Positions 6,661 through 50,293 of a stretch of DNA of 55,530 nucleotides are shown piece after piece. Each line of letters begins with the position of its first letter. Position 1 is the first letter of the stretch. Below the pieces are notes generated by a model. It saw nothing but the letters and a program-made list of their open reading frames with translations. It did not search any database and was not told where the DNA came from. Made by a program: the position numbers and the translations under genes. Origin of the DNA: an uncultured Bacteroidales bacterium (GTDB taxonomy: Bacteria > Bacteroidota > Bacteroidia > Bacteroidales > Paludibacteraceae). The stretch covers positions 1 to 55,530 of the forward strand of contig ONND01000007.1 in assembly GCA_900319105.1 (NCBI GenBank). Direction: 5' to 3'.

Positions 6661-6855
6661 GCACATCTGAATTCGGAAAATTCAAAGAAACTTTAACCAG
6701 GGCATTGCAGCAATGAATGTCTGTCGGCGTATGCATATATCTCCCTCTTGGGTTTATTGTATATACGCGGCGGGCTTCGTGTTGCTATCCGGTTAAAGTA
6801 GGCATTTTCCGAAGCCTAAGATGTGCGGGATAGAAACAAGATGTCCCGCTTTTTT
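6661..6855 (+). ncRNA. Structured RNA-like element S2 with terminator
   Basis: Nested helices: GCACATCT (6661-6668) with AGATGTGC (6819-6826); TCGGAAAAT (6673-6681) with ATTTTCCGA (6804-6812); CTTTAACC (6691-6698) with GGTTAAAG (6791-6798); GCGTAT (6727-6732) with ATACGC (6763-6768). It ends with GCGGGA (6825-6830) pairing with TCCCGC (6844-6849) and a T-run, a Rho-independent terminator on the plus strand that competes with the outermost helix. No open frame or family match was recognised, and no clear TAnnTTTG promoter lies directly upstream. The layout resembles the element at 50138-50293. A structured ncRNA is favoured; a DNA-level element is possible. Confidence 0.55.
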
Positions 6856-6932
6856 ATGCGGATGAAAGTGTTGTATAGCTGATGTAAATAGTGTGATTAT
6901 TCGTGTTTTTTGGGGACAATATATATTTGACT

Positions 6933-6999
6933 ATTTGTCATGTAACACTATATAATTTGTCATATGTATTGCATATTCCAAAATAAAATACTAATTTTG
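6933..6999 (+). promoter_or_regulatory. Promoter and direct-repeat operator of the AraC-type regulator gene
   Basis: ATTTGTC at 6933-6939 and again at 6955-6961 (22-bp period), then TATTGCA at 6967-6973 supplying the -33 TTG, 20-bp spacer, TAATTTTG at 6992-6999. The same parts with the same spacing occur at 7712-7778, which points to one regulator acting on both genes. Confidence 0.75.
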
Positions 7000-7021
7000 C
7001 AACAGATTTTGAAATGAAGGT

Positions 7022-7693
7022 ATGAAAATAGTAAGAAGTCTGTTTATGCAAAAATGTTGCTCGTTGGTTTTTTGTCCAATATTACTGAATGTCAGCTTTG
7101 CGCCAAACCAAGAGCAACGAATTATTGAGGAGGAGATCAGCCATACTAACGGAGTATGGGCGTTATTGTTGTTTGTAGTTGCAGCAGTAGTGGTAACCGT
7201 TTGTATAGTGTATTTACGCAGACGCCGCTCGGCAGAACTGAAGAATCGTGCAACGGGCAATCCTATAATTCAGGTTCCGAATAATAAGACACAATACAAC
7301 AAAACGCAATCGGAGAAAGAGGCTGCAATAGAAGAAGGTATTGTAAGCGTAGATTCGCTTACTCCTGAAGAATTGTTTGCGTACATGAGTCGGATTATTC
7401 AATCCGAACTATTATTTCTCCGTGCTGATTTTGGGCGCCAGTGTTTAATGGATCGTTTTCATCTGAGCAAAGAGCGTGTCGGACAAGCGTTTGCTCAAGG
7501 TAGTTCCTATAATTCGGTAGCGGACTATATTCGTGATTTGCGCTTAGATTACTCTACCAATTTGCTCAAGCACCCCGAATTATCAATTAGCGACGTCTCG
7601 AAAGCTTCGGGCTTTTTGAGTCTGTCTGTCTATACCCGCACTTTTCGTAAAAAATACGGAGTAACCCCCTCGGCATATCGTGCCCAAGGGTAA
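7022..7693 (+). CDS. Membrane-anchored AraC-family transcription regulator
   Basis: 223 residues. An N-terminal signal-like segment is followed by a short extracytoplasmic stretch, one membrane helix (about 46-64, VWALLLFVVAAVVVTVCIVY), an RRRR stop-transfer, a linker, and a C-terminal AraC-type double HTH (about 120-222). The HTH is shown by VADYIRDLRLDYSTNLLK, ISDVSKASGFLSLSVYTRTF and RKKYGVTPSAYRA. It lacks the sensor and kinase parts of hybrid two-component proteins, so it looks like a minimal membrane-bound regulator. A probable target is the surface-protein gene at 7803, whose promoter repeats its own operator. What it senses is unknown. Confidence 0.85.
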   Translation: MKIVRSLFMQKCCSLVFCPILLNVSFAPNQEQRIIEEEISHTNGVWALLLFVVAAVVVTVCIVYLRRRRSAELKNRATGNPIIQVPNNKTQYNKTQSEKEAAIEEGIVSVDSLTPEELFAYMSRIIQSELLFLRADFGRQCLMDRFHLSKERVGQAFAQGSSYNSVADYIRDLRLDYSTNLLKHPELSISDVSKASGFLSLSVYTRTFRKKYGVTPSAYRAQG

Positions 7694-7711
7694 AGAGGGG
7701 TTATTTTTACT

Positions 7712-7778
7712 ATTTGTCGTAAGACGATAGACCATTTGTCTTACGTATTGCACGTTTTCTTAAAAAGCAATACCTTTG
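7712..7778 (+). promoter_or_regulatory. Promoter and direct-repeat operator of the surface-protein gene
   Basis: ATTTGTC at 7712-7718 and 7734-7740 (22-bp period), TATTGCA at 7746-7752, TACCTTTG at 7771-7778. Distances between all parts equal those at 6933-6999. Two half-sites two helical turns apart, next to the -33 region, fit activation by an AraC-type dimer. Confidence 0.75.
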
Positions 7779-7802
7779 CACTCGTTTTTGATGAGTTTGT
7801 TT

Positions 7803-10800
7803 ATGAAAAGGTATTGTTTTTTAGTCTTATTAGGCGTGTTTTTTCGTACCAGTTTGTGGGCATATACCGCATATTTCCATGCGGGTAGCGGAATGGTTAA
7901 TGGTTCAACCGATTGTACCATAACAGAGTCTTCTGACGGCGCAGGAATAGAATTGCCTACCGCCGTTCTTAACAATTGCTCTTTATGGGAGTTTGCCGGA
8001 TGGGCAGTGCGTTCGATTGCATATGAATCGAATAGCAATCTAACCCAGCCTATCTATCGCGCGGGAACATTATATATATTAAGTTCCGCTGAGACGTTTT
8101 ATGCGGTATATCGCTATAAGACCAACCGTTATCATGAGATATATGTAAATGATCAATTGATGACGGGTGGTAAATATTTGATGGTAAATACACACGACTA
8201 TTCATGTATCTATCCCAATGGCAATAATCTGTCTCCGCAAAGCATTGAAGACTATTACAGTACATGGTCTGACGGATATATTGATATTGATGCAGCAACA
8301 GCCTCTCGATTGAGTACAGATATAAAGACGAAATTGCCCTATATATTTGAACAACGGGAAGTGAAGAATCATTATTGGGCTTTGTATAATGTGGCAATGA
8401 ACAAATATCTCAAGATTACAATTCCTATAGGTATGCAAGATAGCTATGATGAGAATACACATAGTTTGATAGAGCGCATTGATTGGAATTTGTTTAATTT
8501 TATAGACGCGCATGACCTTAGCCATAGGTTGGCTGTCGTGACAACTAACCAGTGGGGAGAAGTTACGGCCAGTTATCCGGATTTTTATATGTTTTGTCAA
8601 GCGACAGTATATGCATCCGAGCCGGATTGCGAAGCCCCGAATCACACGGTATCGCTGGATGCAGGGACGAACGGAAGAGTAACTATATCTAAATTAGTCG
8701 AGACGGATTATCATGCCGGAGTCACTTTACCTGCTGCTACACCGAATACCGGTAGTAGCGGATGTGACGAGTTATGGGAGTTTGCCGGATGGACAGAGAG
8801 TGGGTCGATACTTTCTACGGATTCTTCAGGATTGTCCAAACGGCTCTATTTGGAGGGAGAGGTGTATTATCCGGAACGAGACGAAACATTACACGCTGTT
8901 TTTCGACGCAAGTCCTACATCTGGGAAAGAGTAGCGAATCTGGCTGAGTTAAAGACGTTAAAGGCTGGTGAAAAGATTCTAATAGCGTACGATAATGGGG
9001 TGGACTATTATGTGCTATCGTCTGACGAAGCGTCAGTAGGTTACAATATCGGAAAAAACATTGGATATGATGCCATCACCTCAATATCAAATACAGGTCT
9101 TGTTTGGTCTCTGGAGGGAGAAGAGAGTGCTTGGCGACTCAAAGATGCAAATGGCAAGCATTTAGATCTAACCCGTTCAGACTTCGCATATTCCTATAGT
9201 TATCCTTGGGATCGCTGGTCAGACGAGTTCACCATAACCGGATCTTCTACGTTCCAGATACATAGTAATTTTGGCGAGCAGCGTTTTCTGACGACGGATG
9301 GAACGAAATTCTTCTCGCAACTTGGAGTCAACTCCAATTTCGCTATCTTCCGTCAAGTGACGACTTATTCCAAAACACCTAAATGCGAAACATATGCGGT
9401 GCTGTTCAATTCGGGTGAAGGGACTTTTACCGGCATGTCCACTAATGAACAACTCATAATACCGAATGTCAGTTCAGATAGGGGATTGAACCTTAGTGAT
9501 TCTTCCGTCCCTGTTCCAACGGTGGATTGCGCCGGATGGTCCTTTGCCGGTTGGCGTATAGGGCACGGCTTGAATGCTACAACGAATGCACCGGGTATGC
9601 TTTATAGGGCATCAGACACGTTTATTCCTATGCAGGATAGCCTGGTGCTTTATGCCGTTTATCAATACGGAAGTGGTGGCACTTATTACGAGAAAGTGAC
9701 ATCGGCGGAGGATGTGACCTCCGGAGATACCTATATTCTTGTGAACACCTCGAACACGAAAGCGGTAACGTACAAGAATTCCAATTCGTCATGGAGCGGA
9801 ACATCTGTAACTATCACAAATGATACTATATCTGGGAATGCAGTCCCTGCTACATTACTATGGACATATAACGGTACATATTTTTATAATGGAACAGATG
9901 ATAGTAACCATCGTTTGGCGAATAATGGGAATACAAGTTATGCCGGACAGTTAACAGATAGTTCGTCGCCTTTTACTCTGACTTATAGCACCAGCTCATG
10001 GTGGAGTACCACAACATATTACTTACGATGGGCTAACTCAAGTTTCTCGTATCAGAGCAAAGACTCAAAACATCAGTTCTTTATTTTTAAGCAGAAGACC
10101 TCCGCATCGGGGTATAACTCATGGCCTCATTGTACGCCGTTCAAAGTAGTTCTTAATGCGTGTGGAGGGGCATTCTCTACAGAAGGTGATACGCGCTCTT
10201 TGACGGAGAACGAGGCCGGTCAAGGTGTGTCATTGGAAGGATACGAACCGACGAATAATTGCGAATGGACGTTTGTCGGGTGGACAGAGAAAGGCGGGCT
10301 TAATGCTTCCACTGTAGCGCCAGATGATTTACTGTGTTCTTCTGCTACTTTTGTACCCAAAGAAGCGACCGATCAGTTGTATGCGGTTTACTATGATAAT
10401 GCATCCAGATTATGGTCCTCTTATCCCGCTTGCGATGGACGAATAGAAGTGGTAGAATGGCGCGCAAACGCTATTGTGGTAGAGAGTTATACGCTTACAG
10501 GCACACCCTCGTTCAATGGAATACCTGCTATAGCGAATGCCGATGGGACGTACACTATAGAATATGATGTACTGAGCAATCCATGTACGCCACTTCTTAT
10601 ATCATGGGGGAGTACGAAAGCCATTATCAAAACACCGATGATAGTGACTTCATACAGCCGAACATCAGCAGTCACGGATGTAGTTGAGAATTGCGAGAGT
10701 TGTGATATATTTATTCTGGACGGCGGCACAGCGGTTGTGGACAAACCCAATAGTGTGCGGAATGTGACGATCTATTCAGGGGGAAGGCTTGAGATTGATT

Positions 10801-12203
10801 CTGAGCAAAGTTTGACTGCGGCATCATTTACTATGTGTGCCTTTGGCGATGAAGAGGCTCCGATAGCCAGGATTCAAGGTGCATTCAATTGTCCGGTTTT
10901 TAACTATGACCAGCGTATAGACAATAGCCGATATTATTGGTTTTCATTACCTTACGATGTGTCATTGAATAATGTGAACTATGCTTTGCTTGATGCCAAC
11001 AGCCCAACGAATGCTATATATGACAAGGATTATTATATTCAATTCTATGATGGCGTTCGTCGAGCGCAAGAGAAAGGAACATCTTCCACCTATTGGACAC
11101 ATATAGCTGATATAGAAGATGAAACGTATCAGACGAAATCAACACTTAAAGCAGGACGCGGATACTTGTTGGGATTGCCAAGATCGAAACAAAACCAAAC
11201 AGGGCATAAATATCGTACATTGCGTTTCCCGATGAATGTCACGGACGGATGGCGTACGGAACAAGAAGCCGGCAAGATTGTAGCGGTTCAAGGTGCCGAT
11301 TGTGCTGATATGGTGCAGCACGTCGGGTGGAATCTTATAGGCAATCCTTTTCTGATGCCTTTTAGTGCCACTTCGGCTGCAGATGTTACTGGTGGTAAAT
11401 TAGAATATTATTACGAAGATGGTGAATGGGTGTCGCCTTGGTATACAATTGAAGGAGGGACAGAATCAGTGCCTTATGTCACATTGTATGACCCTCAAAC
11501 CGATGAATATACCCAAACGACTCTTGTAGGTGCATTGTTGCAGCCATTTAGTGCTGCGTTCGTTCAATTGAATGAAGGAGTGAGCGGACTTTCTTTCCAA
11601 GGATCAATAGTTTCTAAAAACAATGTTCCGGCAAAGCGAATGGGACTGCTGCATGAAGAAGAGGATGAGGCTACAACTCTGACTATTATTGCTAAAAACA
11701 CGATAGGTTCGGACAGAAGTACAATTATAGTGAATGATCGATACAATAGTTCCTACGAAATCGGTGCGGATTTGCTCAAAATGAAGAATCAGGGAAAATT
11801 ACAACTATATACGCTGCAACAAAACGTGCAACACGCCTTTAATGCAATGAACTATATGGATGCAGATTCTATACCGATAGGGTTTATCCAAAATACAGAT
11901 GGAGAAATAACCATTTCTACCGCTATCGAAAAGTGCAATGAAGAAGTGAATGGAATCTGGCTTTATGATAACGAAGCGCAAACACAAACCAACCTGCTTT
12001 CAGAAGGATATACATTCTATTCGAAAGCAGGAATATACAACAACCGCTTATGGTTGCGCATAACTAAACAAGAAGGAATAACTACCGATATCAACTCTGC
12101 TTCAAACAACTTCCTAAATGGGGATGAGGTGCGTAAAGTTATGATTAATGGACACTTATACATATTACGTGAAGGGCGGGTATATGATGTATTAGGAAGA
12201 TAA
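7803..12203 (+). CDS. Giant surface protein with four FAGW repeats and sorting-type tail
   Basis: 1466 residues, starting with a signal peptide (MKRYCFLVLLGVFFRTSLWA). At least four modules resemble InlB B-repeat/Listeria-Bacteroides repeats: each has Cys-x-x-x-Trp-x-Phe-(A/V)-Gly-Trp and ends in (L/F)YAVY or LHAVF, at about residues 50-95, 290-365, 560-610 and 810-855. Between them lie Trp- and Tyr-rich segments such as VTSGDTYILVNTS. The C-terminus holds a beta-rich region and the tail RKVMINGHLYILR, EGRVYDVLGR. An upstream in-frame TTG (7776) overlaps the promoter; ATG 7791 is possible, but 7803 gives the best signal peptide. Likely exported to the cell surface; the ligand is unknown. Confidence 0.85.
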   Translation: MKRYCFLVLLGVFFRTSLWAYTAYFHAGSGMVNGSTDCTITESSDGAGIELPTAVLNNCSLWEFAGWAVRSIAYESNSNLTQPIYRAGTLYILSSAETFYAVYRYKTNRYHEIYVNDQLMTGGKYLMVNTHDYSCIYPNGNNLSPQSIEDYYSTWSDGYIDIDAATASRLSTDIKTKLPYIFEQREVKNHYWALYNVAMNKYLKITIPIGMQDSYDENTHSLIERIDWNLFNFIDAHDLSHRLAVVTTNQWGEVTASYPDFYMFCQATVYASEPDCEAPNHTVSLDAGTNGRVTISKLVETDYHAGVTLPAATPNTGSSGCDELWEFAGWTESGSILSTDSSGLSKRLYLEGEVYYPERDETLHAVFRRKSYIWERVANLAELKTLKAGEKILIAYDNGVDYYVLSSDEASVGYNIGKNIGYDAITSISNTGLVWSLEGEESAWRLKDANGKHLDLTRSDFAYSYSYPWDRWSDEFTITGSSTFQIHSNFGEQRFLTTDGTKFFSQLGVNSNFAIFRQVTTYSKTPKCETYAVLFNSGEGTFTGMSTNEQLIIPNVSSDRGLNLSDSSVPVPTVDCAGWSFAGWRIGHGLNATTNAPGMLYRASDTFIPMQDSLVLYAVYQYGSGGTYYEKVTSAEDVTSGDTYILVNTSNTKAVTYKNSNSSWSGTSVTITNDTISGNAVPATLLWTYNGTYFYNGTDDSNHRLANNGNTSYAGQLTDSSSPFTLTYSTSSWWSTTTYYLRWANSSFSYQSKDSKHQFFIFKQKTSASGYNSWPHCTPFKVVLNACGGAFSTEGDTRSLTENEAGQGVSLEGYEPTNNCEWTFVGWTEKGGLNASTVAPDDLLCSSATFVPKEATDQLYAVYYDNASRLWSSYPACDGRIEVVEWRANAIVVESYTLTGTPSFNGIPAIANADGTYTIEYDVLSNPCTPLLISWGSTKAIIKTPMIVTSYSRTSAVTDVVENCESCDIFILDGGTAVVDKPNSVRNVTIYSGGRLEIDSEQSLTAASFTMCAFGDEEAPIARIQGAFNCPVFNYDQRIDNSRYYWFSLPYDVSLNNVNYALLDANSPTNAIYDKDYYIQFYDGVRRAQEKGTSSTYWTHIADIEDETYQTKSTLKAGRGYLLGLPRSKQNQTGHKYRTLRFPMNVTDGWRTEQEAGKIVAVQGADCADMVQHVGWNLIGNPFLMPFSATSAADVTGGKLEYYYEDGEWVSPWYTIEGGTESVPYVTLYDPQTDEYTQTTLVGALLQPFSAAFVQLNEGVSGLSFQGSIVSKNNVPAKRMGLLHEEEDEATTLTIIAKNTIGSDRSTIIVNDRYNSSYEIGADLLKMKNQGKLQLYTLQQNVQHAFNAMNYMDADSIPIGFIQNTDGEITISTAIEKCNEEVNGIWLYDNEAQTQTNLLSEGYTFYSKAGIYNNRLWLRITKQEGITTDINSASNNFLNGDEVRKVMINGHLYILREGRVYDVLGR

Positions 12204-12218
12204 AGAAGAGGTGTAGGT

Positions 12219-12593
12219 ATGAGAAAAAGGTATAGTCTGTTCTTCGTGTTGCTTTTGGTGTGCCTGTCAATGAAAGCTGAGTTCTCTCCGTTTGAGAGAC
12301 CAACAGTTTGTTTCCAGCCAGGAACGATAAACACAATGCCCACCAATACACGTTTTATTAGTGCGCACACAGTCCCTGTTGCAGAAGTATATTCTCCTGC
12401 ATCGATGTCCTCAAATACTACCCCTCGTTCGTTGAGACGTAATGGGCGCGACGAACCCGGGGGCGGAAATCCATCCGATCCATATATGGACACACCTTTA
12501 GGAGACGTTCCTGTTGTATGGATCTTGGTAATAGGTGTTTGGTATGTATGGCGAACAAAGATTAAGAGTAATTTGTTTACAAGAGTAGGTTGA
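12219..12593 (+). CDS. Small secreted protein with Pro/Gly linker and C-terminal membrane helix
   Basis: 124 residues, 15 bp after the surface-protein gene and surely cotranscribed. Signal peptide at 1-20 (RYSLFFVLLLVCLSMKA), low-complexity middle, then DEPGGGNPSDPYMDTPLGD, one hydrophobic helix (VPVVWILVIGVWYVW) and a basic end (RTKIKSN). Proteins with this PGGG-DPY-TPLGD-helix-basic plan commonly follow repeat-rich surface proteins in Bacteroidales; the C-terminal signal looks like a membrane anchor or a sorting signal of its own. Role unknown. Confidence 0.75.
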   Translation: MRKRYSLFFVLLLVCLSMKAEFSPFERPTVCFQPGTINTMPTNTRFISAHTVPVAEVYSPASMSSNTTPRSLRRNGRDEPGGGNPSDPYMDTPLGDVPVVWILVIGVWYVWRTKIKSNLFTRVG

Positions 12594-12621
12594 TTAGTTA
12601 CATTTTTCGCATTCGTTCGCC

Positions 12622-12656
12622 CTCCCATGAGATTACCCCCTCATGGGAGTTTTTTT
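12622..12656 (+). terminator. Rho-independent terminator of the surface-protein operon
   Basis: CTCCCATGAG (12622-12631) and CTCATGGGAG (12640-12649) form a perfect 10-bp stem followed by seven T. Confidence 0.9.
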
Positions 12657-12698
12657 AATCCCCTAACCCCCTAATCCCCCAAAAATCTTCGCTTTTCC

Positions 12699-12729
12699 TT
12701 GCACAATTCAAAAAAAAGCAGTACCTTTG
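12699..12729 (+). promoter_or_regulatory. proS promoter
   Basis: TTG at 12699-12701, 20-bp spacer, TACCTTTG at 12722-12729. Confidence 0.85.
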
Positions 12730-12782
12730 CAGCCGATTTGGAAAAAGACCCAATGGTAAATGCATAAATAGTAAATATATAG

Positions 12783-14273
12783 ATGGCTAATTTTCAAAAA
12801 CTGACTCCTCGTAGTGAGGACTATTCTAAATGGTACAATGAGCTGGTCGTCAAGGCTGATCTGGCGGAGCAGAGTGCAGTCCGCGGATGTATGGTGATCA
12901 AACCTTACGGCTATGCAATCTGGGAAAAGATCCAGGCGGAACTTGACCGCCGATTCAAGGAACAGGGAGTTAAAAACGCCTATTTCCCTCTGCTGATCCC
13001 CAAATCGTTCCTCAGTCGTGAGGCGGAGCACGTGGAGGGATTCGCCAAGGAGTGCGCCGTAGTGACCCACCACCGTCTGATGAACGATCCGAACGGCAAA
13101 GGTGTGGTGGTCGATCCGCAGGCTAAACTGGAAGAAGAGCTGATCATCCGTCCTACCTCGGAGACGATCATCTGGAGCACGTATAAGAACTGGATCTCGT
13201 CCTATCGCGACCTGCCTATCCTCTGCAACCAATGGTGTAACGTCATGCGTTGGGAGATGCGTACGCGTCTCTTCCTCCGTACGGCGGAGTTCCTGTGGCA
13301 GGAAGGTCACACGGCACATGCCACCAAGGAGGAAGCGGAGGACTACGCACGCCAGATGCTCGATGTATATGCGGATTTCGCGGAGAACGTGATGGCTATT
13401 CCGGTCGTTAAGGGAGTCAAGAGCCCGAACGAGCGTTTCGCCGGCGCACTCAATACGTATTGTATCGAAGCTATGATGCAGGACGGCAAGGCGCTGCAGG
13501 CGGGTACCTCGCATTTCTTGGGACAGAACTTCGCGAAGAGTTTTGATGTACAGTTCCTCTCGAAGGAGAATAAATACGAGTACGTATGGGCTACGTCTTG
13601 GGGCGTTTCGACGCGTTTGATGGGTGCGCTCATCATGACCCACTCCGACGATAACGGACTCGTCCTGCCGCCGCACCTCGCGCCGATACAGGTGGTTATC
13701 GTGCCGATCTTCAAGAAAGAGGAAGACCTCGCCAAACTGCTCGTCAAACTCAATCCGCTGGCAGACCAACTCAAGGCACTCGGCATCCGCGTCAAGGTGG
13801 ATACCGATGAGAAATATACGCCGGGTTATAAGTTCGCCGATTACGAGCTCAAGGGAGTACCTATTCGCTTGGCGATGGGAGGCCGTGATCTCGAGAACGG
13901 CACTATCGAGATAGCACGCCGTGACACGCAGACCAAAGAGACGATTTCTCTCGATGGAATCGTGGAAAAAATACAATCCCTGCTGGAGGAGATCCAGAAG
14001 AACCTGCTGCAGAAAGCCCTCGATTTCCGTATCGCCAACACCCGCGAGGTGAACAGCTATGACGAGTTCAAAGAGGAGCTGAAGAAAGGCGGTTTCCTTC
14101 TCGCTCACTGGGATGGTACCGCCGAGACGGAGCAGCGTATCAAGGATGAGACGAAAGCGACGATCCGTTGCATCCCCTTGTCCGACCTGCCGGGACATCA
14201 TAGCGAGCCGGGAGTCTGCATGGTAACCGGCAAACCGAGTGCCGGAAGAGTTGTTTTCGCACTCAACTACTAA
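12783..14273 (+). CDS. proS: Proline--tRNA ligase, short (archaeal/eukaryote-like) type
   Basis: 496 residues. Class II synthetase that charges tRNA-Pro in the cytoplasm. Motif 2/3 regions are visible ([39 protein letters not shown]), as is the anticodon-binding domain (about 285-400) and the C-terminal zinc-type extension ending in GRVVFALNY. The roughly 500-residue form without the INS editing domain is the one found across Bacteroidetes. Single-gene unit with its own promoter and terminator. Base composition is more GC-rich than the accessory region to the left. Confidence 0.97.
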
Positions 14274-42859: not shown

Positions 42860-42866
42860 TCTCTTG

Positions 42867-42950
42867 TGCGCAGGATGAGACTCGAACTCACACGATCTTG
42901 CGACCACTACCCCCTCAAAGTAGCGTGTATACCAATTTCACCACCTGCGC
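42867..42950 (-). tRNA. tRNA-Leu (GAG)
   Basis: 84 nt with acceptor GCGCAGG/CCTGCGC, D-arm GGTGGTGAAATTGGTATACA, anticodon loop TTGAGGG inside stem CTACT/GGTAG, class II variable arm and T-loop GTTCGAGTC. No encoded CCA. Confidence 0.93.
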
Positions 42951-42954
42951 GTCG

Positions 42955-43036
42955 TGCCCAGAACAGGACTCGAACCTGCACACCTCGCGGCATGCGCACC
43001 TGAAACGCACGCGTCTACCAATTCCGCCATCTGGGC
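42955..43036 (-). tRNA. tRNA-Leu (CAG)
   Basis: 82 nt with acceptor GCCCAGA/TCTGGGC, anticodon loop TTCAGGT inside TGCGT/GCGCA, long variable arm, T-loop GGTTCGAGTCC. Four bases from the next tRNA. Confidence 0.95.
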
Positions 43037-43047
43037 AAAAAAAAAGG

Positions 43048-43120
43048 AGCGGAAAACGAGACTCGAACTCGCGACCCCAACCTTGGCAAGGTTGTGCTCT
43101 ACCAACTGAGCTATTTCCGC
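43048..43120 (-). tRNA. tRNA-Gly (GCC)
   Basis: 73 nt with acceptor GCGGAAA/TTTCCGC, D-arm AGCTCAGTTGGTAGAGCA, anticodon stem-loop ACCTTGCCAAGGT, T-loop GTTCGAGTC. First tRNA of the minus-strand transcript. Confidence 0.96.
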
Positions 43121-43174
43121 TTACTTCTTTCGTATTTGAAAGATCATTTCGCCTCCATTTTTTGAAAGCGGGTG

Positions 43175-43205
43175 CAAAAGTACTGCTTTTTTTTGATATA
43201 CGCAA
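43175..43205 (-). promoter_or_regulatory. tRNA operon promoter
   Basis: Minus strand: TTG (43205-43203), 20-bp spacer, TACTTTTG (43182-43175). Confidence 0.8.
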
Positions 43206-43250
43206 ATTTTTTAACAAAAAAATGCAAAAAAAATGTATTTTTGCCTGTTT

Positions 43251-44096
43251 TTAGACCCAACCAAGGCATCCAACGGCAAAAGTGGAGAGCATTAGGACCG
43301 GCATTTGCAGATCTAACGCACTTCCTTCATGCGTCCAAACAAACCCTATATGCCATACCCATATTGGTACCACAACCAGTACCCATAGATGCCCCCAAAG
43401 AGCGAACAACGCAAGGCATGCAATCAACAGGCAGGTGTGGTAGATCTTACTGCCGGTAATGCCCAGCAGCGACGCAAACGTGTGCTTCCCGTGCGCGCGA
43501 TCATTATTCATATCGCGTATGTTGTTCAGATTGAGGACACCCACACAGGGCAGCCCGATCGCAATACCGCAATAGATCGTTTCCCAACTCATGAACTGCG
43601 TCTGCAGGTAGAATGAACCCAACGTACTCACCAATCCGAAGAAGACGAACACTCCCAAATCGCCCAAACCCATATAGCCGTAACTATGCCGGCCGAGTGT
43701 ATAGGTCATCGCGCCGATGATGGCTAATAGACCCAAGAGAATGAAAAGCAGACTCTTTACCCCGATAAGCGAACCGAATGCGCAGTAAATAAGCGAAGTG
43801 CCAAACAAAATAGAAAGGAAAATAAAAACGCCTATCATCGCTTTCATCTGCGGCGCGGTGATCGTGCCGGCCTGCATTCCGTAGGCGGCACGGCCATGCT
43901 GATCCGAGTCCGTTCCTTTCTGCGCATCGCCTAATTCATTACTCAAGTTGCTTAAGATCTGCAAACACAAGGTTGTACAGATAGCCAAAGCAAACACAGG
44001 CCAGTTTAGCCAACCTGCCAAACCTGCCCCTAAGATAATGCCCGACATCGATAGCGGTAAGGTCCGCAAACGTAGCGATTGGATATACGGATTCAT
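43251..44096 (-). CDS. menA: 1,4-dihydroxy-2-naphthoate polyprenyltransferase
   Basis: 281 residues, about eight membrane helices. UbiA-family prenyltransferase for menaquinone. Prenyl-diphosphate sites: NELGDAQKGTDSDQHGRA (about 55-72) and NNIRDMNNDRAHGKHT. The gene overlaps the GH53 gene by four bases. Menaquinone is the only quinone expected in this phylum. Confidence 0.95.
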   Translation of the reverse strand: MNPYIQSLRLRTLPLSMSGIILGAGLAGWLNWPVFALAICTTLCLQILSNLSNELGDAQKGTDSDQHGRAAYGMQAGTITAPQMKAMIGVFIFLSILFGTSLIYCAFGSLIGVKSLLFILLGLLAIIGAMTYTLGRHSYGYMGLGDLGVFVFFGLVSTLGSFYLQTQFMSWETIYCGIAIGLPCVGVLNLNNIRDMNNDRAHGKHTFASLLGITGSKIYHTCLLIACLALFALWGHLWVLVVVPIWVWHIGFVWTHEGSALDLQMPVLMLSTFAVGCLGWV

Positions 44097-45199
44097 CGTT
44101 TATTGGGATTTTGACTGTTCAGTAAGATCTGCATCACTTCCGACGGAGTGCCTTCCGGCGTGAACGCACCCATGTCATAAGAGCCCCATCCGAGCGGGAT
44201 ATACTCTGCCGGCCGCCAGCCGCCATATACCTCCGGCTCCCAATAGAAAATACCGGCACAGGAGTCGATAGCTGTCGCGCGCTGGATAAAATCTGCCATC
44301 ACTACCGGCGAAAGCGTATCATTGGCGAACATTCCGACCTCGGCAATCATCACCGGGCAATGCCAGTCATGAATGAGCCGCTTGATATTTTCTTCCGCTA
44401 ACTCGTTCATTTCCTGCCAACTCTTACCGCCGTTCCAAGCGCTCATCATCGGGTAGTGGCTCAGTCCGATCATGTCCCATTTGCCGCCGTTGTCATGCAT
44501 TGATTGCCAGAACCAGTCGCGACGCTCATACGCGTTATCGACATGTACGATGACGATGATATCGCTGAACGCCTCTTTGGCGGCTTCGTATCCGACACGA
44601 GTGAAACCGGCATAGCGTCCCCATGCCTCATCTATCTCCTTCCCTTTAGGGAGGGTCGGGGTAGGCTTGCTCACTTTTCCCATCGGCCATAGCATCCCGT
44701 TCGGCGTCTCGTTGCCTATCTGTACCCATTCAGGCTTGATCCCCTCTTCCTTGAGTGCATAGAGCACATCGAGCGTGTGTTCACGCACCGCCTCGCACAT
44801 TGTCTTATAGTCATAGTTCTGCCATGCCGCTGGGATCGTCTGGTGACTCGGGTCTGCGAAGAAATCCGAATAGTGAATATCAATCATTATTCGCTGTCCC
44901 GCTTCCGCGGCACGCTTGGCGAGAGAGAGCATGTCCTCTTTGTTGCTCCATCCGGTCGAGTGGTTCACCCATACGCGCAGTCGTACGGCGTTCATTCCCA
45001 TTCCGCGCAGTACCTCAATACAGTCAGACCCCTGACCGCTGACTTCAGAGGGCTTATAAAACGCCACTCCGTCATGCTCCATCTCGCTCAGCCAACTCAG
45101 GTCCGCACCTTTGGCCCAGCTGCCGCGAGGACTGTCTGTCCGATGATAACATCCGGTCAAAAGACCAAGGATACTTGCAATAAAGAAAATCTTTTTCAT
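44093..45199 (-). CDS. GH53 arabinogalactan endo-beta-1,4-galactanase lipoprotein
   Basis: 368 residues. Lipobox ILGLLTGC (Cys 17), so lipid-anchored. GH53 signatures: KGADLSWLSEMEHDGVAFY, GMNAVRLRVWVNHSTGWSNK, IDIHYSDFFADPSHQTIPAA, VQIGNETPNGMLWP (acid/base Glu) and MIAEVGMF (nucleophile Glu). Cuts galactan side chains of pectin. Residues of about 177-188 (SKPTPTLPKGKE) are a palindrome-encoded in-frame insertion. No SusCD pair is nearby. Confidence 0.93.
   Translation of the reverse strand: MKKIFFIASILGLLTGCYHRTDSPRGSWAKGADLSWLSEMEHDGVAFYKPSEVSGQGSDCIEVLRGMGMNAVRLRVWVNHSTGWSNKEDMLSLAKRAAEAGQRIMIDIHYSDFFADPSHQTIPAAWQNYDYKTMCEAVREHTLDVLYALKEEGIKPEWVQIGNETPNGMLWPMGKVSKPTPTLPKGKEIDEAWGRYAGFTRVGYEAAKEAFSDIIVIVHVDNAYERRDWFWQSMHDNGGKWDMIGLSHYPMMSAWNGGKSWQEMNELAEENIKRLIHDWHCPVMIAEVGMFANDTLSPVVMADFIQRATAIDSCAGIFYWEPEVYGGWRPAEYIPLGWGSYDMGAFTPEGTPSEVMQILLNSQNPNKR
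44637..44670 (-). repeat. Palindromic insertion inside the GH53 gene
   Basis: Minus-strand AAGCCTACCCCGACCCTCCC, then TAAAGGGAAGGAG. CCCT/AGGG stem at 44642-44651. Best example of the family consensus. Confidence 0.8.
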
Positions 45200-45232
45200 A
45201 CAAAATGTTTTTTAACCACTAACCCCTAACCG

Positions 45233-45604
45233 TTATTTGAATCCGAAAACGAAATAGACCGCTCCGACAAGTAACAGGCATGCCACTAAATGATTCCATC
45301 GCAACTGCATATGAAACGCCAGAGCGCTAAAAACGAGAAACACAATCAGTGTGATAACCTCCTGAATCACTTTGAGTTGCATCAGCGAGAATGAACCGCC
45401 ATTACCCTCAAAACCAATACGGTTTGCCGGCACTTGGAGGCAGTATTCAAAGAACGCGATACCCCACGAGAGGAGGATCACAAAAATCAGAGGCGTGGCA
45501 TTGTTGATGAAGCCGGTCTGTTGCAGCTTCAGATGTCCGTACCACGCAAGCGTCATGAAGATATTCGACGCTAATAGTAATAAGATGGTATATAATGCAT
45601 TCAT
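45233..45604 (-). CDS. DUF486 membrane protein (DMT-like)
   Basis: 123 residues, four membrane helices. Signatures ASNIFMTLAWYGHLKL, LLSWGIAFFEYCLQVPANRI and GFEGNGGSFSLMQLKVIQEV identify DUF486. Resembles half of a drug/metabolite transporter; substrate unknown. Start overlaps the ttcA-like gene stop by four bases. Confidence 0.95.
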   Translation of the reverse strand: MNALYTILLLLASNIFMTLAWYGHLKLQQTGFINNATPLIFVILLSWGIAFFEYCLQVPANRIGFEGNGGSFSLMQLKVIQEVITLIVFLVFSALAFHMQLRWNHLVACLLLVGAVYFVFGFK

Positions 45605-46332
45605 AATTTCGGCAAATAGTCAAATTTTACATTAGTCATTGCCGCAAACATGGTGTCGGCGGCTTCGGGATGGAGCGCTTTGATCTGCGCCAGCAGTCCT
45701 TTCACTTTCTCACGCGAACTCACATGCTCGAAGGGACATAAATGCGGCTGTTTCTGATAGCCTTTTTCCTGGGCGTGCGCGATCAAGTCTGCTTCGTCAA
45801 TCAGGCATAACGGACGGATGATCTGAATCGGCATCTTGTCCATCTGCAGCATCGGCGGCATGGTCGCGACGGCCCCTTGATAGATGAGGTTCATCAGCAG
45901 CGTCTCTAACAGGTCGTCGCGATGATGACCGAAGGCAATCTTGTTGCACCCGAGCTCCTGCGCTACGTTAAACAGGGTCTTGCGTCTGTACCACGAGCAC
46001 AAGAAACAGGGGTTGTTAATCTCGCGAGGGGTTCTCCCTTCCCTCAAGGGAGGGGACGGGGGGAGGCTTATGTCCCGCACGATGAACGGCACTTGAGCGG
46101 CGTCACAGAAGGACTGCAGGTAACTCATATCGCTTTCGTAGGCCCGCTCTTTGACCCGCACATGGATTGCTGTCACGCGAAACCGCGGCTTGTATATCTG
46201 TGCCCGTTGACCCAGTAACTCAACCAACGCCAACGAGTCCTTGCCGCCGCTCAGTCCCACCAATATATGGTCGCCGTCGGCTATCAGACCATAGTCTGCG
46301 CAAGCCTTATGAAATTTCTTGACGATATTCAT
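45601..46332 (-). CDS. TtcA-like tRNA 2-thiocytidine synthetase
   Basis: 243 residues. ATP pyrophosphatase loop LVGLSGGKDSLALVELL (about 24-40) and the CxxC motif NNPCFLCSWYRRKTLF that binds the iron-sulfur cluster, then AFGHHRDDLLETLLMNL. This is the TtcA plan of s2C32 synthesis; a third Cys (HLCPFE) is also present. About 13 residues (LPPSPPLREGRTP) before the CxxC motif come from an inserted palindrome. Confidence 0.9.
   Translation of the reverse strand: MNIVKKFHKACADYGLIADGDHILVGLSGGKDSLALVELLGQRAQIYKPRFRVTAIHVRVKERAYESDMSYLQSFCDAAQVPFIVRDISLPPSPPLREGRTPREINNPCFLCSWYRRKTLFNVAQELGCNKIAFGHHRDDLLETLLMNLIYQGAVATMPPMLQMDKMPIQIIRPLCLIDEADLIAHAQEKGYQKQPHLCPFEHVSSREKVKGLLAQIKALHPEAADTMFAAMTNVKFDYLPKL
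46034..46070 (-). repeat. Palindromic insertion inside the ttcA-like gene
   Basis: Plus-strand CTCCCTTCCCTCAAGGGAGG followed by GGACGGGGGGAGGCTTA. Arms CCCT and AGGG around CA. Encodes LPPSPPLREGR on the minus strand. Confidence 0.8.
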
Positions 46333-46820
46333 TCTGCCGCCTGTTGCAATCGTTTTTCGTATTTCTGGATCTCTAAGGACGTACGCGTGATACGTTTCTC
46401 GAGCTCTTTGATGTCGCGAATGACGATCTGCAGGTGTTGCGCCCGCTCCACAGCCTCTTGTTCCCTTCCCTTTAGAACATTGTCGGGGTAGGCTTGTCTT
46501 TTCCCGTTGCGGTAGAGTAGCAACTCTTTGCCGTCGTCACGCACCAGGATACGCAGACCGCTCGGCAAACTCTGTACATAATTGCCGTGGTCCTGGTACT
46601 TGTCGTTTTTCTCGTATTTGAAGAGCATGATCAGGCTGTCGGAAACGGGCAAAAGGGAATCCAGTTGGGCTTCGTAATAAACTAACGAACGCTGCTGCTC
46701 GGTGAGCGAGACCGAGTCCCGCTCATGCTTCTCCGCGCGGTACTGTTCTACTTTCGACGGCTTGTTACATCCCGCCATCACCAGCCCGCATAGGGCTATC
46801 CAAAAAAGACGCTTTCTCAT
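46329..46820 (-). CDS. Lipoprotein with C-terminal coiled coil
   Basis: 163 residues from ATG 46820; the longer frame would lose the lipobox. Lipobox ALCGLVMAGC (Cys 18). The mature part is charged and helical, ending in a coiled coil (EAVERAQHLQIVIRDIKELE, KRITRTSLEIQKYEKRLQQA). Residues of about 108-120 (KRQAYPDNVLKGRE) stem from a worn palindromic insertion. Function unknown. First gene of the minus-strand operon leading to menA. Confidence 0.85.
   Translation of the reverse strand: MRKRLFWIALCGLVMAGCNKPSKVEQYRAEKHERDSVSLTEQQRSLVYYEAQLDSLLPVSDSLIMLFKYEKNDKYQDHGNYVQSLPSGLRILVRDDGKELLLYRNGKRQAYPDNVLKGREQEAVERAQHLQIVIRDIKELEKRITRTSLEIQKYEKRLQQAAE
46461..46496 (-). repeat. Worn palindromic insertion inside the lipoprotein gene
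   Basis: Plus strand TTCCCTTCCCTTTAG, an altered centre, then TCGGGGTAGGCTTG. Ends match the GH53 copy; the centre has lost the palindrome. Confidence 0.65.
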
Positions 46821-46828
46821 AACGACTG

Positions 46829-46859
46829 CAAAGGTAGTATTTTTTTTTGAATTGTGCAA
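46829..46859 (-). promoter_or_regulatory. Promoter of the lipoprotein-ttcA-menA operon
   Basis: Minus strand: TTG (46859-46857), 20-bp spacer, TACCTTTG (46836-46829). Confidence 0.85.
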
Positions 46860-46912
46860 GAAAATTATCAATAATCGTTCCGTAGGATAAGAAAAAGCGA
46901 AGATTTTTTTGT

Positions 46913-46942
46913 CGATGGTCGTTAGTCGATGGTCGATGGACC
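46913..46942. repeat. GTCGATGG-type intergenic repeat
   Basis: Three close units of (G)TCGATGG / TCGTTAG. The reverse complement resembles 3460-3485 and 5229-5253 (CTAACGACTAACGACCATC), so this is a dispersed intergenic sequence. Confidence 0.55.
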
Positions 46943-47041
46943 ACACATTATGGTTCTATTCTTACCATAGCCCTTCTAATCCCTAATGCGAGGGATTTTG
47001 GTGCCGAAATGCAGAAATTAGAACAAAAAGGAAAGAAAAAC

Positions 47042-47072
47042 TTGCATAGTTGAAATAAAAGTTGTACCTTTG
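47042..47072 (+). promoter_or_regulatory. Promoter of the metallophosphoesterase gene
   Basis: TTG at 47042-47044, 20-bp spacer, TACCTTTG at 47065-47072, ATG 24 bp downstream. Confidence 0.85.
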
Positions 47073-47095
47073 CCCTCCTTTACAAAAAAAGCGAT

Positions 47096-48634
47096 ATGAA
47101 AAAAATTACCAATCTTTTGTTGATGACCTTGCTGGCACTCTGCATGAGCCTGACAAGTTGTGTTAAAGACCCGGAAGTGGACAATCCTAAAGAAAAAGAC
47201 CCAGACTTCAAGTACATTATGTTGATGAGCGACATCCACGTGATGGCTCCCCAACTGCTGGAGAAAAGAGGCTCGGCCTATGAGAAGTATCTGAGTCAGG
47301 ACCCCAAACTGTTGGAATACAGCGGCGAGGTGTTGGAATATCTGGTAGGAGAGACGCTCCAGCGTAACCCTGACCTTGTCATCATCCCGGGAGACCTGAC
47401 GAAAGACGGTGAACTGGTGAGCCCTCAGTTGGTGGTGAGTGTTCTCGCAAAACTGCGCAGTGCCGGCATTCCGGTAATAGTAGTGCCGGGAAATCACGAC
47501 ATTGACAATCCGGAGGGCTATTACTTTGACGGCGACAACATGCGCCCGGCAGCACGCACATCGCCCGAGCAGTTTGCGGCGCTCTATGCGGACTTCGGCT
47601 ACAACCAGGCGTACGCCAAAGACCCCGCCTCCCTCTCCTTCGTCTGTGAACCGCTGAAAGGACTCGTCTTGCTGTGCATCGACACCGATAAGTATGAAGA
47701 AAATCGCTACATCGATAAAGGCGACACGATTAACTATAACCAGACTGCAGGCCGTATTCGTCCGGCTACGCTGACCTGGATGCTGGCGGAAGCGGACAAA
47801 GCCCGCGAGTTGGGAAAGCAGGTGGTGCTCGTACAACACCATAACATCGTACAGCACTACGATGCACAAGGTGCCCTCCAAGGTGATTACATCATTGCTG
47901 ACTACGAGAATGTAAGCAAGCAGCTGATGGCGCATGGCATCCACTTGGCTTTTACAGGCCATTCGCATCTCCAAGACATTGCCCAATATCGTACCATAGC
48001 AGATAATAACCAACTCGACAGCCTGATTGATGTATCTACAGGATCCTCTATCTCTTACCCCAACCCCTGGCGCACGATCAAGGTGAGCAATGACTTCACG
48101 GAGTGGCAGATCAAGACCGGGTACGTGACGACCATACCTTCGCTCAGTAACGTGCAATCGACGTGTTACAAAAGCCTCCACGATAATTTCAAAGGAGGAC
48201 TGGGCTGGCATATCAAAGATGGATGGAGCAGCATAGATAAAAATCGTTCTCAGCTGGAAGCATTAGGCTTACCAAAGGGATTCTTTCCTCAAACGCCTGA
48301 AGAATTGACGGAACTGCTGACGACATACCTCGGCGATCAGTTGGCCGGGATTTTTATGATTTATAACGAGGGCAACGAGTGGAAGAATCCCCAAGCATCG
48401 GCACTGGAACTTCAACTGAAGAGCAATTTGGAGAAGTTGCTGCGTGACAGGGCGGCAGTAGTTGGCTTGGATGATACGCAGACCGCAGGTCTTGTCATTC
48501 TCTTCAATACCATGTACAGCGCGAATTTTGAGCCGGGATTGAAGAGTATGTTGACAGATATTAACCAGTACATCGCCCCTGATAGGAAAAGCCGAACGGA
48601 CGACCTCAACGTGGTCTTGCGTATAGGCCGATAA
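47096..48634 (+). CDS. Calcineurin-type metallophosphoesterase lipoprotein
   Basis: 512 residues. Lipobox LCMSLTSC (Cys 19). Metallophosphoesterase motifs in order: DIHV (about 45), PGDLTKDGE, VVPGNHDIDNP, QHHNIVQHY and FTGHSHLQDIA. The C-terminal 170 residues are helical and not recognised. It likely faces the periplasm or cell surface; substrate unknown. Single-gene unit. Confidence 0.92.
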   Translation: MKKITNLLLMTLLALCMSLTSCVKDPEVDNPKEKDPDFKYIMLMSDIHVMAPQLLEKRGSAYEKYLSQDPKLLEYSGEVLEYLVGETLQRNPDLVIIPGDLTKDGELVSPQLVVSVLAKLRSAGIPVIVVPGNHDIDNPEGYYFDGDNMRPAARTSPEQFAALYADFGYNQAYAKDPASLSFVCEPLKGLVLLCIDTDKYEENRYIDKGDTINYNQTAGRIRPATLTWMLAEADKARELGKQVVLVQHHNIVQHYDAQGALQGDYIIADYENVSKQLMAHGIHLAFTGHSHLQDIAQYRTIADNNQLDSLIDVSTGSSISYPNPWRTIKVSNDFTEWQIKTGYVTTIPSLSNVQSTCYKSLHDNFKGGLGWHIKDGWSSIDKNRSQLEALGLPKGFFPQTPEELTELLTTYLGDQLAGIFMIYNEGNEWKNPQASALELQLKSNLEKLLRDRAAVVGLDDTQTAGLVILFNTMYSANFEPGLKSMLTDINQYIAPDRKSRTDDLNVVLRIGR

Positions 48635-48693
48635 TATTACCCCCAAAAATTAAAGATTTTCGGGGCCCCCATAAGGACATATACTAAGCACCG

Positions 48694-48825
48694 CGGACAT
48701 TTTTTGAGAACCGCTAAAACGGTTTCCTGTTTTGCCCATACAAATACCATCTTATGCAAGCATAGCTATTATTTGTCTGTGCTAAACAGATAAAATTTCA
48801 TTTTATTTTTCAAAAAAAATGTCCG
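48694..48825. other. Inverted-repeat element S6 directly before a promoter
   Basis: CGGACATTTTTTG (48694-48706) is complementary to CAAAAAAAATGTCCG (48811-48825) apart from two extra A. TATGCAAGCATA lies inside at 48753-48764, as in the element at 16798-16923, and small hairpins ACCG/CGGT and TCTGT/ACAGA flank it. The right arm ends 4 bp before the promoter. 48635-48693 holds a weak CCCC/GGGG hairpin and nothing else. Confidence 0.6.
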
Positions 48826-48829
48826 AACG

Positions 48830-48861
48830 TTTGCGTATGTGCAATTTTTGTAGTAACTTTG
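48830..48861 (+). promoter_or_regulatory. Promoter of the RhuM gene
   Basis: TTTG at 48830-48833, 20-bp spacer, TAACTTTG at 48854-48861. The 100-nt leader has hairpins CCTCCC/GGGAGG and the palindrome ATTTCACATGTGAAAT. Confidence 0.85.
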
Positions 48862-48960
48862 CACCCGAAACGTCCTCCCGACGGAACGGGAGGAGTGGTC
48901 TCCGCCGAGGAGGGTAAACATTTCACATGTGAAATTTGTGCCCACATGATACCTAAGAAT

Positions 48961-49803
48961 ATGAAAGACGAAATAGTTTTATATCAACCCAACGAGCAAT
49001 TCCAATTGGAAGTGCAGTTGAAAGACGAGACCGTATGGCTCACTCAGCCGCAAATAGCAGCCTTGTTTGGTGTCCAAAGACCTGCTGTCACCAAACATCT
49101 TCGTAATATCTTCCAAGAGGGAGAACTAGACCCAAATTCAGTTAGTTCCATTTTGGAACATACTGCCGCAGATGGCAAGGTTTATAGCACGCAGTTCTAT
49201 AACTTAGACGCCATATTATCAGTAGGTTATCGCGTTAATAGCAAGAATGCGACATTGTTCCGTAGATGGGCAAATCAAGTATTAAAGGACTACTTGTTAC
49301 GCGGCTATGCCGTTAATCAACGTTTGCTGAATATTGAAAACCAATTGGTGTCGCAGCAGAAACAATTAGCGCAACACCAAGAACAGATAGATTTCTTTGT
49401 GCGTACATCACTACCACCCGTTGAAGGTATCTTTTATGATGGTCAGATTTTTGATGCTTACACGTTTGTAAATGATCGAATCCGCGAAGCAAAGAAACGT
49501 ATTATCCTCATTGATAACTATGTAGATGATAGCGTATTGAAGATGTTGGATAAACGTGCGAAAGGAGTTTCTGCAAAAGTATATACCAAGTTTTTTACAC
49601 CGCAGTTGTCCCTTGATTTCGACAAGCACAACGCACAATACGAGCCTATTGAGGTAGAGCAGTTTGACCGCTCGCATGATAGGTTCTTATGCATTGACGA
49701 GACGGTCTATCATATTGGCGCATCGCTCAAAGATTTAGGCAAGAAATGGTTTGCTTTTAGCAGAATGGAGCAAACAACGACTGAACTATTGAATAAGATG
49801 TAA
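48961..49803 (+). CDS. RhuM-family virulence-type protein
   Basis: 280 residues from ATG 48961. N-terminal RhuM DNA-binding-like domain: VWLTQPQIAALFGVQRPAVT, KHLRNIFQEGELDPNSVSSI and TQFYNLDAILSVGYRVNSKN. C-terminal region: FDAYTFVNDRIREAKKRIIL, IDNYVDDSVLKMLDKRAKGV and HDRFLCIDETVYHIGASLKD, the last resembling a half phospholipase-D motif. Often found beside restriction systems and in mobile islands; the role is unknown. Longer frames upstream run through the leader hairpins. Repeat R follows its stop. Confidence 0.9.
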   Translation: MKDEIVLYQPNEQFQLEVQLKDETVWLTQPQIAALFGVQRPAVTKHLRNIFQEGELDPNSVSSILEHTAADGKVYSTQFYNLDAILSVGYRVNSKNATLFRRWANQVLKDYLLRGYAVNQRLLNIENQLVSQQKQLAQHQEQIDFFVRTSLPPVEGIFYDGQIFDAYTFVNDRIREAKKRIILIDNYVDDSVLKMLDKRAKGVSAKVYTKFFTPQLSLDFDKHNAQYEPIEVEQFDRSHDRFLCIDETVYHIGASLKDLGKKWFAFSRMEQTTTELLNKM

Positions 49804-49840
49804 GATCTTTGATATCACAATTTGTGATTTCAAATAGACC

Positions 49841-49875
49841 GCTGAGCTCAGCAGCGTAAAAAAGTGGTGAAAAAG
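49841..49875 (+). repeat. Short intergenic repeat R, copy 3
   Basis: CAGCGTAAAAAAGTGGTGA at 49852-49870, one base different from copies 1 and 2, followed by the same AAAAAG. Preceded by the palindrome GCTGAGCTCAGC (49841-49852). Confidence 0.75.
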
Positions 49876-49888
49876 AAGAGTTGAACAT

Positions 49889-50053
49889 ATGAAATACACT
49901 ATAGTCATAGAGGAGATTTTGCGTAAAGAGGTGGCTGTTGAGGTAAAAGACGTAGAGGAAGCAGAAGAGATTGTTGAGGCGCTTTATCGCAAAGGGGAGA
50001 TTGTTTTGGACGCAGGTGATTTCATTGGAGAACCGACCATAACATGTAAGTGA
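49889..50053 (+). CDS. Small DpnD/PcfM-like protein
   Basis: 54 residues: MKYTIVIEEILRKEVAVEVK, a short acidic helix (DVEEAEEIVEALYRKGEIVL), then DAGDFIGEPT. The EIVLDAxDFxG ending and the beta-alpha-beta layout match the DpnD/PcfM family, small proteins of phages and conjugative elements, one of which lies in the pneumococcal DpnI cassette. Here it sits between rhuM and a DpnII-type operon. Too short for routine gene calling. GAAGAG lies 7 bp upstream. Confidence 0.8.
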   Translation: MKYTIVIEEILRKEVAVEVKDVEEAEEIVEALYRKGEIVLDAGDFIGEPTITCK

Positions 50054-50137
50054 AAATCGAGAAACATAATTGACATAAAAACATCCGCAGCGGCGGAGTA
50101 AACATATTTATTAATTAGCGTTTGCTATTTGTCTATT

Positions 50138-50293
50138 CGCACTGAAACGTAGGAACTTTCAAGAATAAGCAAATTAGAAAGAACAAAAGCAAACCCGCAG
50201 TTTTTGCGGGCGACTTGTCTTTCTATTGGTGCTATTCCTACGACCACAGTGCGAGCAAGTTTGCCCGCATTTTGCGTTTATATAGGTCGTAGA
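50138..50293 (+). ncRNA. Structured leader element S4 of the DpnII operon
   Basis: Nested helices: CGCACTG (50138-50144) with CAGTGCG (50247-50253); CGTAGGAA (50148-50155) with TTCCTACG (50235-50242); TAGAAAG with CTTTCTA (about 50175-50181 and 50218-50224); CCCGCA (50194-50199) with TGCGGG (50205-50210). Two competing pairings exist: CTACGACC (50238-50245) with GGTCGTAG (50285-50292), and TGCGGGC (50205-50211) with GCCCGCA (50263-50269). Both cannot form with the first set. The layout and several short sequences match the element at 6661-6855. It could be a regulatory leader for the operon or an independent RNA. Confidence 0.55.

Follow-up and report, generated by a model that had tools for sequence, protein, structure and literature searches.

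What is the strongly folding element that stands at two places in a 55,530-nucleotide (nt) contig of an uncultured Bacteroidales bacterium, and what does it do there? The contig (Paludibacteraceae; GenBank assembly GCA_900319105.1, ONND01000007.1, positions 1 to 55,530) was analysed over its whole length and is called the window below. An earlier note on this DNA had described two diverged copies of one structured element, each with three nested helices, as a conserved RNA or folded single-stranded DNA. The observation was confirmed and proved larger than first seen, and its interpretation as RNA was supported; the gene-leader nature of the elements had not been seen. We conclude that the element probably acts in cis as a 5′ leader RNA, controlling the adjacent gene through transcription attenuation, and that it represents what appears from sequence to be a new, widespread family of cis-regulatory RNAs working like an attenuator or a riboswitch. 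The attenuator reading is based on the position in front of genes, the covariation of both alternative pairings, the U-tract, and the enrichment of a promoter-like box upstream.

Two covariance models were used. R1 was trained on 15 long-form copies, including copy 1 of the window and no short forms, and R2 was trained on nine copies of the short form, including copy 2. The three nested helices noted earlier are P1 to P3 in both copies, and P4/P5 and the 3′ strand also belong to the element. Both places had been located correctly, but their starts had been set too late, leaving out the hairpin H0. The best bounds and the parts of the two copies are as follows.

6633..6854, + strand: copy 1, long form, whole element; cmsearch with R1, 187.5 bits (training-set member)
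6637..6650, + strand: copy 1, 5′ hairpin H0, GCGTTTATTGACGC; from the sequence
6641-6646 and 6711-6716, + strand: copy 1, PK1, the H0 loop and the segment with which it can pair; read by eye
6661..6668, + strand: copy 1, left strand of P1, right strand 6819-6826; from the sequence
6672..6681, + strand: copy 1, left strand of P2, right strand 6804-6813; from the sequence
6690-6698 with 6791-6799, + strand: copy 1, P3; from the sequence
6690..6738, + strand: copy 1, 5′ interior strand (P3L, P4L, P5L), partner 6757-6800; RNAduplex −43.6 kcal/mol
6768..6794, + strand: copy 1, switching strand I, alternative partner 6824-6851 (helix T); RNAduplex −28.6 kcal/mol
6824..6855, + strand: copy 1, 3′ strand and U-tract (TTTTTT, 6850-6855), where a local hairpin GCGGGA/TCCCGC also lies
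50113..50274, + strand: copy 2, short form, whole element; cmsearch with R2, 152.7 bits (training-set member)
50117..50126, + strand: copy 2, H0 (AGCGTTTGCT); from the sequence
50138..50144, + strand: copy 2, left strand of P1, right strand 50247-50253; from the sequence
50148..50155, + strand: copy 2, left strand of P2, right strand 50235-50242; from the sequence
50176-50181 with 50219-50224, + strand: copy 2, P3; from the sequence
50204..50229, + strand: copy 2, switching strand, partner 50168-50200 (−22.3 kcal/mol) or 50246-50270 (T, −28.1 kcal/mol)
50246..50273, + strand: copy 2, 3′ strand and weak U-tract (TTTTG); from the sequence

The folding energy of segment 6655-6860 was −81 kcal/mol against −52.2 ± 4.1 for shuffles (z −7.0), and that of segment 50130-50300 was −52.8 against −38.4 ± 3.6 kcal/mol (z −4.0). 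Since R1, which holds no short-form member, detected copy 2 (50101-50273, 25.7 bits, E 3e-4), the two copies are related; other short forms scored up to 53.6 bits with R1.

The covariation expected by the earlier note is present in a larger alignment (A5) of 93 long copies made with R1. When all column pairs were scanned, P1, P2, and P3 came out on top, followed by P5 and by the helix that the interior strand forms with the 3′ strand. Over the 47 pairs of P1 to P5, 95.9% of the cells were paired and 38 pairs had changes on both sides, which none of 500 shuffles equalled. The covariation score was 0.656, compared with 0.223 for shuffled and at most 0.094 for slid alignments, in which no more than 24 pairs had double changes. 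P1 was paired in 98.7% of cells (double changes in 7/7 pairs) and P2 in 99.2% (6/7) in the long form, and in 98.9% (7/7) and 99.7% (6/6), respectively, in the short form, where P1 to P3 together reached 94.1% with double changes in all 18 pairs. G-U pairs occurred among the conserved pairs of the long-form alignment. The helix sequences varied freely while near-invariant residues outside them stayed, namely GCGTTT.., TTTGTT (long form), GAA..TTC, and the CC after P2R.

Further pairings were kept within the same 93 copies. P4 was 92.9% paired, and a three-pair local stem in the 3′ strand was 94.4% paired with double changes; in the control for these two, the number of double-change pairs was reached in 14 of 500 shuffles and the other measures in none. 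PK1, between the H0 loop and the 5′ strand of P4, was paired in 89.1% of cells with double changes in 5/6 pairs. Because P4 and the local 3′ stem are kept alongside PK1 and T, the same bases serve two partners. A first guess, that the 5′ TTTGTTCTTG pairs with the 3′ strand, was rejected by eye, as two copies (L005, L006) change the 3′ strand while the 5′ side is constant.

The second partner of the switching strand is central to the proposed mechanism. In both window copies, RNAduplex found two complementary partners for this strand, the 5′ interior strand and the final strand ahead of the U-tract. The pairing with the latter, helix T, was, like PK1, absent from the models used for aligning. 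It was 88.6% paired in the long form, with double changes in 13/18 pairs (0/500 shuffles), its distal half being 96.7% paired (6/10), and 84.9% paired in the short form (15/16). With a median of 23 base pairs (bp) in the 93 long copies, native T had a mean energy of −28.3 kcal/mol, against −21.6 with swapped 3′ strands and −13.8 after simple shuffling, and was better than the mean of its own swaps in 88 copies. The short form gave −22.9 for native and −15.1 kcal/mol for swapped strands, with the native better in 52/53. The competing P4/P5 pairing averaged −26.3 (long) and −19.1 kcal/mol (short). As P1R joins the T strand via only about 2 nt, which would need to bridge the entire P1-P3 stack, T and intact P1 to P3 should be mutually exclusive by geometry. 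A U-tract, taken as at least six T in eight at the RNA end, followed in 88/93 long and 43/53 short copies, compared with 11.5% of random places.

The element also has a fixed place relative to genes. The first context set comprised 107 distinct copies, ten of them short forms found in the initial DNA searches, and the neighbour could be called in 103 of them. The nearest downstream open reading frame (ORF; at least 100 amino acids, aa) was on the same strand in 97 of these, at a median distance of 59 nt; for four of the six exceptions (L080, L090, L062, L127), another ORF reading places a same-strand ORF at 59-179 nt. Upstream genes were less strand-biased (same strand in 78/105). For the short form, a same-strand ORF of at least 60 aa started within 400 nt in 66/68 loci, or 62 of the 64 left after removal of four double entries, at a median of 57.5 nt, against 24/53 for the same test directed away from the 5′ end and 1067/2000 random places (53%); this set takes in copies from other orders. 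In four copies (L085, L027, L091, L093), the frame has its first ATG 0-2 nt past the model end. Upstream of H0, TAnnTTTG, which we take to be the promoter consensus, occurred 103 times within 260 nt in the 107 copies, and 44 of these boxes lay 71-100 nt upstream. Because a same-strand gene stands close behind, promoter-like boxes lie upstream, and some ATGs touch the U-tract, we regard the element as a gene leader.

Two other interpretations of leader sequences were rejected by eye. ACATATT was dropped as the promoter, being in many leaders the 3′ half of a small ATATGT hairpin, with the TAnnTTTG boxes further upstream. A leader peptide was rejected, since the ATG within the 5′ strand of P4 is not conserved. 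A further conserved 5′ unit, CACGCTGG..(A)TGTCT...AGACA(TA)TT, was seen between the promoter box and the core, 20-70 nt upstream of H0 in L117, L118, L091, L112, L090, and others; its halves pair by eye.

From these observations, the following mechanism is proposed. The nascent leader would form the long nested fold, consisting of H0 and P1 to P5, in which the H0 loop docks on the 5′ strand of P4. P4/P5 would then take up strand I, the strand ahead of the U-tract would remain free, and the polymerase would continue, presumably the ON state. Otherwise, strand I and the 3′-terminal strand would form the approximately 23-bp helix T before the U-tract, and transcription would stop ahead of the gene. 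Some signal, which may be a metabolite, a protein, or transcription speed, would shift the balance between the two folds. The family is a candidate class of regulatory RNA, present in a major gut order and outside it, which combines very strong covariation with a docked loop, two helices that compete, and a switch mechanism that can be read off. The model predicts that RNA gates the transcription of restriction-modification, surface, and glycan genes in Bacteroidales, and it names the exact strands involved. The signal, once found, would help to establish when these bacteria turn on their defence and surface genes.

The genes behind the two window copies are listed below.

7022..7693, + strand: downstream of copy 1, AraC-type regulator (HTH_18), ATG 167 nt after the RNA
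50334..51245, + strand: downstream of copy 2, D12-class adenine DNA methyltransferase of a DpnII-type restriction system
51249-52127: DpnII of the same system
52132-53316: second methyltransferase of the same system

Across the family, the downstream genes include surface or secreted proteins, DNA methyltransferases, restriction enzymes, and glycan enzymes. Among the best 25 of 60 families for 95 downstream proteins, where one protein may match several, were LRR_5 (BspA-type) with eight matches, EcoRI_methylase with four, and D12 methyltransferase, N6_N4_Mtase, N6_Mtase, PvuRts1I-like, sulfatase, and GLF with two each. Among the best 25 of 44 families for 54 short-form targets, some of which are the same genes, there were six LRR_5, five MmeI_Mtase, and three N6_Mtase matches. 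A crude test for N-terminal signals was positive in 49/95 downstream proteins versus 6/53 upstream ones. Among the 73 same-strand upstream genes, LRR_5 occurred once, and no DNA methyltransferase was found among the best 25 of 74 families. In other orders, four copies (L221, L223, L228, L230) precede similar-looking proteins of 68-95 aa that have no Pfam match and share an NG(D/E/K)I stretch.

Two versions of the attenuator reading differ in the signal. The element may be a metabolite- or ion-binding riboswitch whose putative aptamer would comprise the conserved H0/PK1 region together with the joints P2-P1 and P4-P5, a version we put somewhat below even chances. The switch architecture, the near-invariant residues outside freely varying helices, and the many copies per genome fit this version, but its expected common downstream pathway is missing among BspA-type proteins, DNA methyltransferases, sulfatases, and glycan enzymes, and no Rfam riboswitch model matched the element in our scans. 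NusG paralogs are the antitermination factors of Bacteroides capsule operons. It is conceivable, albeit doubtful, that the effector is a protein or the elongation complex, the leader recruiting an antitermination factor or sensing polymerase speed; the functionally mixed accessory targets, including UDP-galactopyranose mutase (2/95), would be easier to reconcile with a common factor than with a metabolite.

A broader extension of the attenuator reading, which we offer as speculation, is that one ancient leader class across Bacteroidia ties phage- and host-facing accessory genes to a single shared intracellular signal. It would form an RNA-level regulon of interface and defence genes (restriction-modification, BspA-type, glycan/capsule), with DUF805b in series in some leaders.

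Several findings weigh against the attenuator reading as a whole. The minimum-energy fold of copy 1 is P1 to P5, not T; as the computed energies favour P1 to P5, a factor or some help during transcription would be needed for T to form. This fold includes the local hairpin GCGGGA/TCCCGC, which together with TTTTTT is compatible with P1 to P5, so that P1-P5 folding need not block termination there. With P1R/P2R allowed as the 5′ arm, a local hairpin reaching the T-run was predicted in 86/93 long copies, and it overlaps a well-formed half of T in 54/93. A good U-tract is absent in 10/53 short forms (copy 2 included) and 5/93 long forms. R1 contained P1 to P5, P4, and the three-bp local 3′ stem, so the alignment leans towards P1 to P5. 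The promoter box lies in its preferred zone for only 47/107 copies, fewer than half, and 14/107 copies share more than 100 nt with an ORF of at least 100 aa. Copies from related genomes are not independent, which makes the p-value of the downstream-strand test too small, and the identified targets have no pathway in common.

Some of these points suit a different terminator, in which the 3′ strand would fold locally, alone or with P1R/P2R, and attenuation would run via another alternative pairing. The predicted hairpins at the T-run, the covarying three-pair stem, and the minimum-energy fold of copy 1 speak for it, but the hairpin formed by the 3′ strand alone (mean −7.8 kcal/mol in long and −3.1 in short copies) is weaker than T in 93/93 long copies, and T covaries over its length. 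Therefore, the local 3′ hairpin was dropped as sole terminator, the P1R/P2R-using hairpins were kept as a rival, and we consider this alternative unlikely.

It is improbable that the element is an independent small RNA that ends in a terminator of its own and lies upstream of genes by chance. A terminator-like helix and U-tract at its end would fit such an RNA, and a terminated leader would itself be an RNA of about 200 nt, but the fixed place before a same-strand gene (97/103 and 62/64), the boxes 71-100 nt upstream, and the ATGs that abut the U-tract argue for a leader. A mobile-element end or recombination site acting as folded single-stranded DNA is highly improbable: although the copies are dispersed, numerous, and sometimes near mobile or defence genes, their orientation relative to the gene is fixed, which fits neither an insertion-sequence end nor the single-stranded DNA allowed for in the earlier note, they carry a U-tract and conserved G-U pairs, no viral contig matched the exact 5′ or exact short-form pattern, and in Blast searches copy 1 matched no phage record and copy 2 no plasmid record.

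The leader family is large, spanning Bacteroidales and other orders of its class. The covariance-model search of Bacteroidales proposed earlier found copies across the order; all genome counts are lower bounds, because a limited number of candidates was scored per genome. At E ≤ 0.01, R1 matched 37/37 genomes of the window's genus, its own genome included, with a maximum of 18 matches per genome, and 5/24 other Bacteroidales genomes, one of them marginally. At E ≤ 0.001, it matched 100/150 genomes and 27/33 genera of the family Paludibacteraceae, and at E ≤ 1e-5, 46/247 genomes of the order. R2 matched 24/39 relatives, 55/247 genomes of the order in 46/165 genera, and 14/296 genomes of a phylum sample, 13 of which belong to other orders of the same class. 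The exact 5′ pattern occurred in 33 stretches of named genomes, including metagenome-assembled genomes of Paludibacteraceae and Muribaculaceae, many of them ruminant by title. Two same-strand neighbouring pairs may be double leaders (G081:C34:64974-65194 with 65415-65587, and G253:C66:1250-1414 with 2375-2539).

The family is apparently uncatalogued in Rfam 15 and not in print. In agreement with the earlier note, which recognised no known family, no Rfam family, 6S included, reached its gathering score on the element in both copies and further loci. Permissive scans gave nothing up to E 5 for copy 1, and elsewhere only microRNA models far below the cut-off (L028, E 0.9; L029, E 3; L048, E 0.44). 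A partial literature search, covering published titles and abstract openings, gave no account of this RNA. A 2021 human-microbiome survey reports thousands of candidate RNAs in its supplements, so that an earlier unnamed prediction is possible (PMC8040213).

The element resembles terminating riboswitches and attenuators in being a 5′ leader with a nested, aptamer-like fold, a strand common to two exclusive helices, a terminator-like helix with U-tract, and a gene directly behind; it differs from the known ones in its mixed accessory targets, its switching strand of about 23 nt, and the lack of an Rfam family at cut-off. Flavo-1 and other structured RNA motifs of Bacteroidota were reportedly described by Weinberg et al. 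in 2010. Like the present family, Flavo-1 is a structured RNA of Bacteroidota with many copies. Its copies are reported to lie both sense and antisense to transcripts (PMC9723704), whereas the present family is strand-fixed and without an Rfam match. Antitermination leaders (UpxY/NusG-paralog capsule leaders, EAR, put) control read-through, some of them on glycan genes. The element resembles these in its putative leader-borne control of read-through, as compared through Rfam scans only.

One catalogued RNA was found within some of the same leaders. DUF805b (RF02914, clan CL00115; Rfam type Cis-reg) reached its gathering score between U-tract and ATG in 11 of 27 loci chosen partly for a visible shared spacer motif (L107, L018, L048, L109, L040, L114, L054, whose gene runs off the locus, L104, L026, L123, and L120), and in none of ten other scanned loci; given this choice of loci, the share does not measure a frequency. 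Its model is 35 nt long, compared with 160-270 nt for the present element, which lies upstream of it and is matched by no DUF805 model. DUF805b, listed by Rfam only as a cis-regulatory RNA, is thereby placed in a composite leader. Another shared spacer motif, AAGTTGCG(C/T)CCGACAC..ATT..GGG, stands just before the ATG in L103, L106, L057, L024, L074, and L116, and several times precedes BspA-like genes.

The position of the element downstream of a KilA-N/RhuM gene and a repeat R, as noted earlier, holds for both window copies, with a dpnD-like gene in between at copy 2, but is no general rule. KilA-N/RhuM was rejected as a constant partner, since only seven of the 73 same-strand upstream genes match ORF6N (four) or RhuM (three), plus the KilA-N gene of copy 1. 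That gene (5775-6585) appears interrupted, its open ORF starting at 5956 and covering profile positions 66-100 only. Repeat R (5722-5755, 6590-6625, and 49847-49880) consists of a small hairpin followed by GTAAAAAAG(C/T)GGTGA, and its units stand before the KilA-N gene, copy 1, and dpnD. In an Rfam scan of 5450-7050, only GP20-b overlapped the first unit, at E 4, far below the cut-off. Similar units (GTCG..CGACGTTAAAC) lie ahead of several other copies, where the loop may by eye pair downstream as an H-type pseudoknot. Finally, a small hairpin of the GTAGC..GCTAC type ends a few nucleotides before the ATG in the short-form leaders of copy 2 (50308-50331), L023, L029, and L030.

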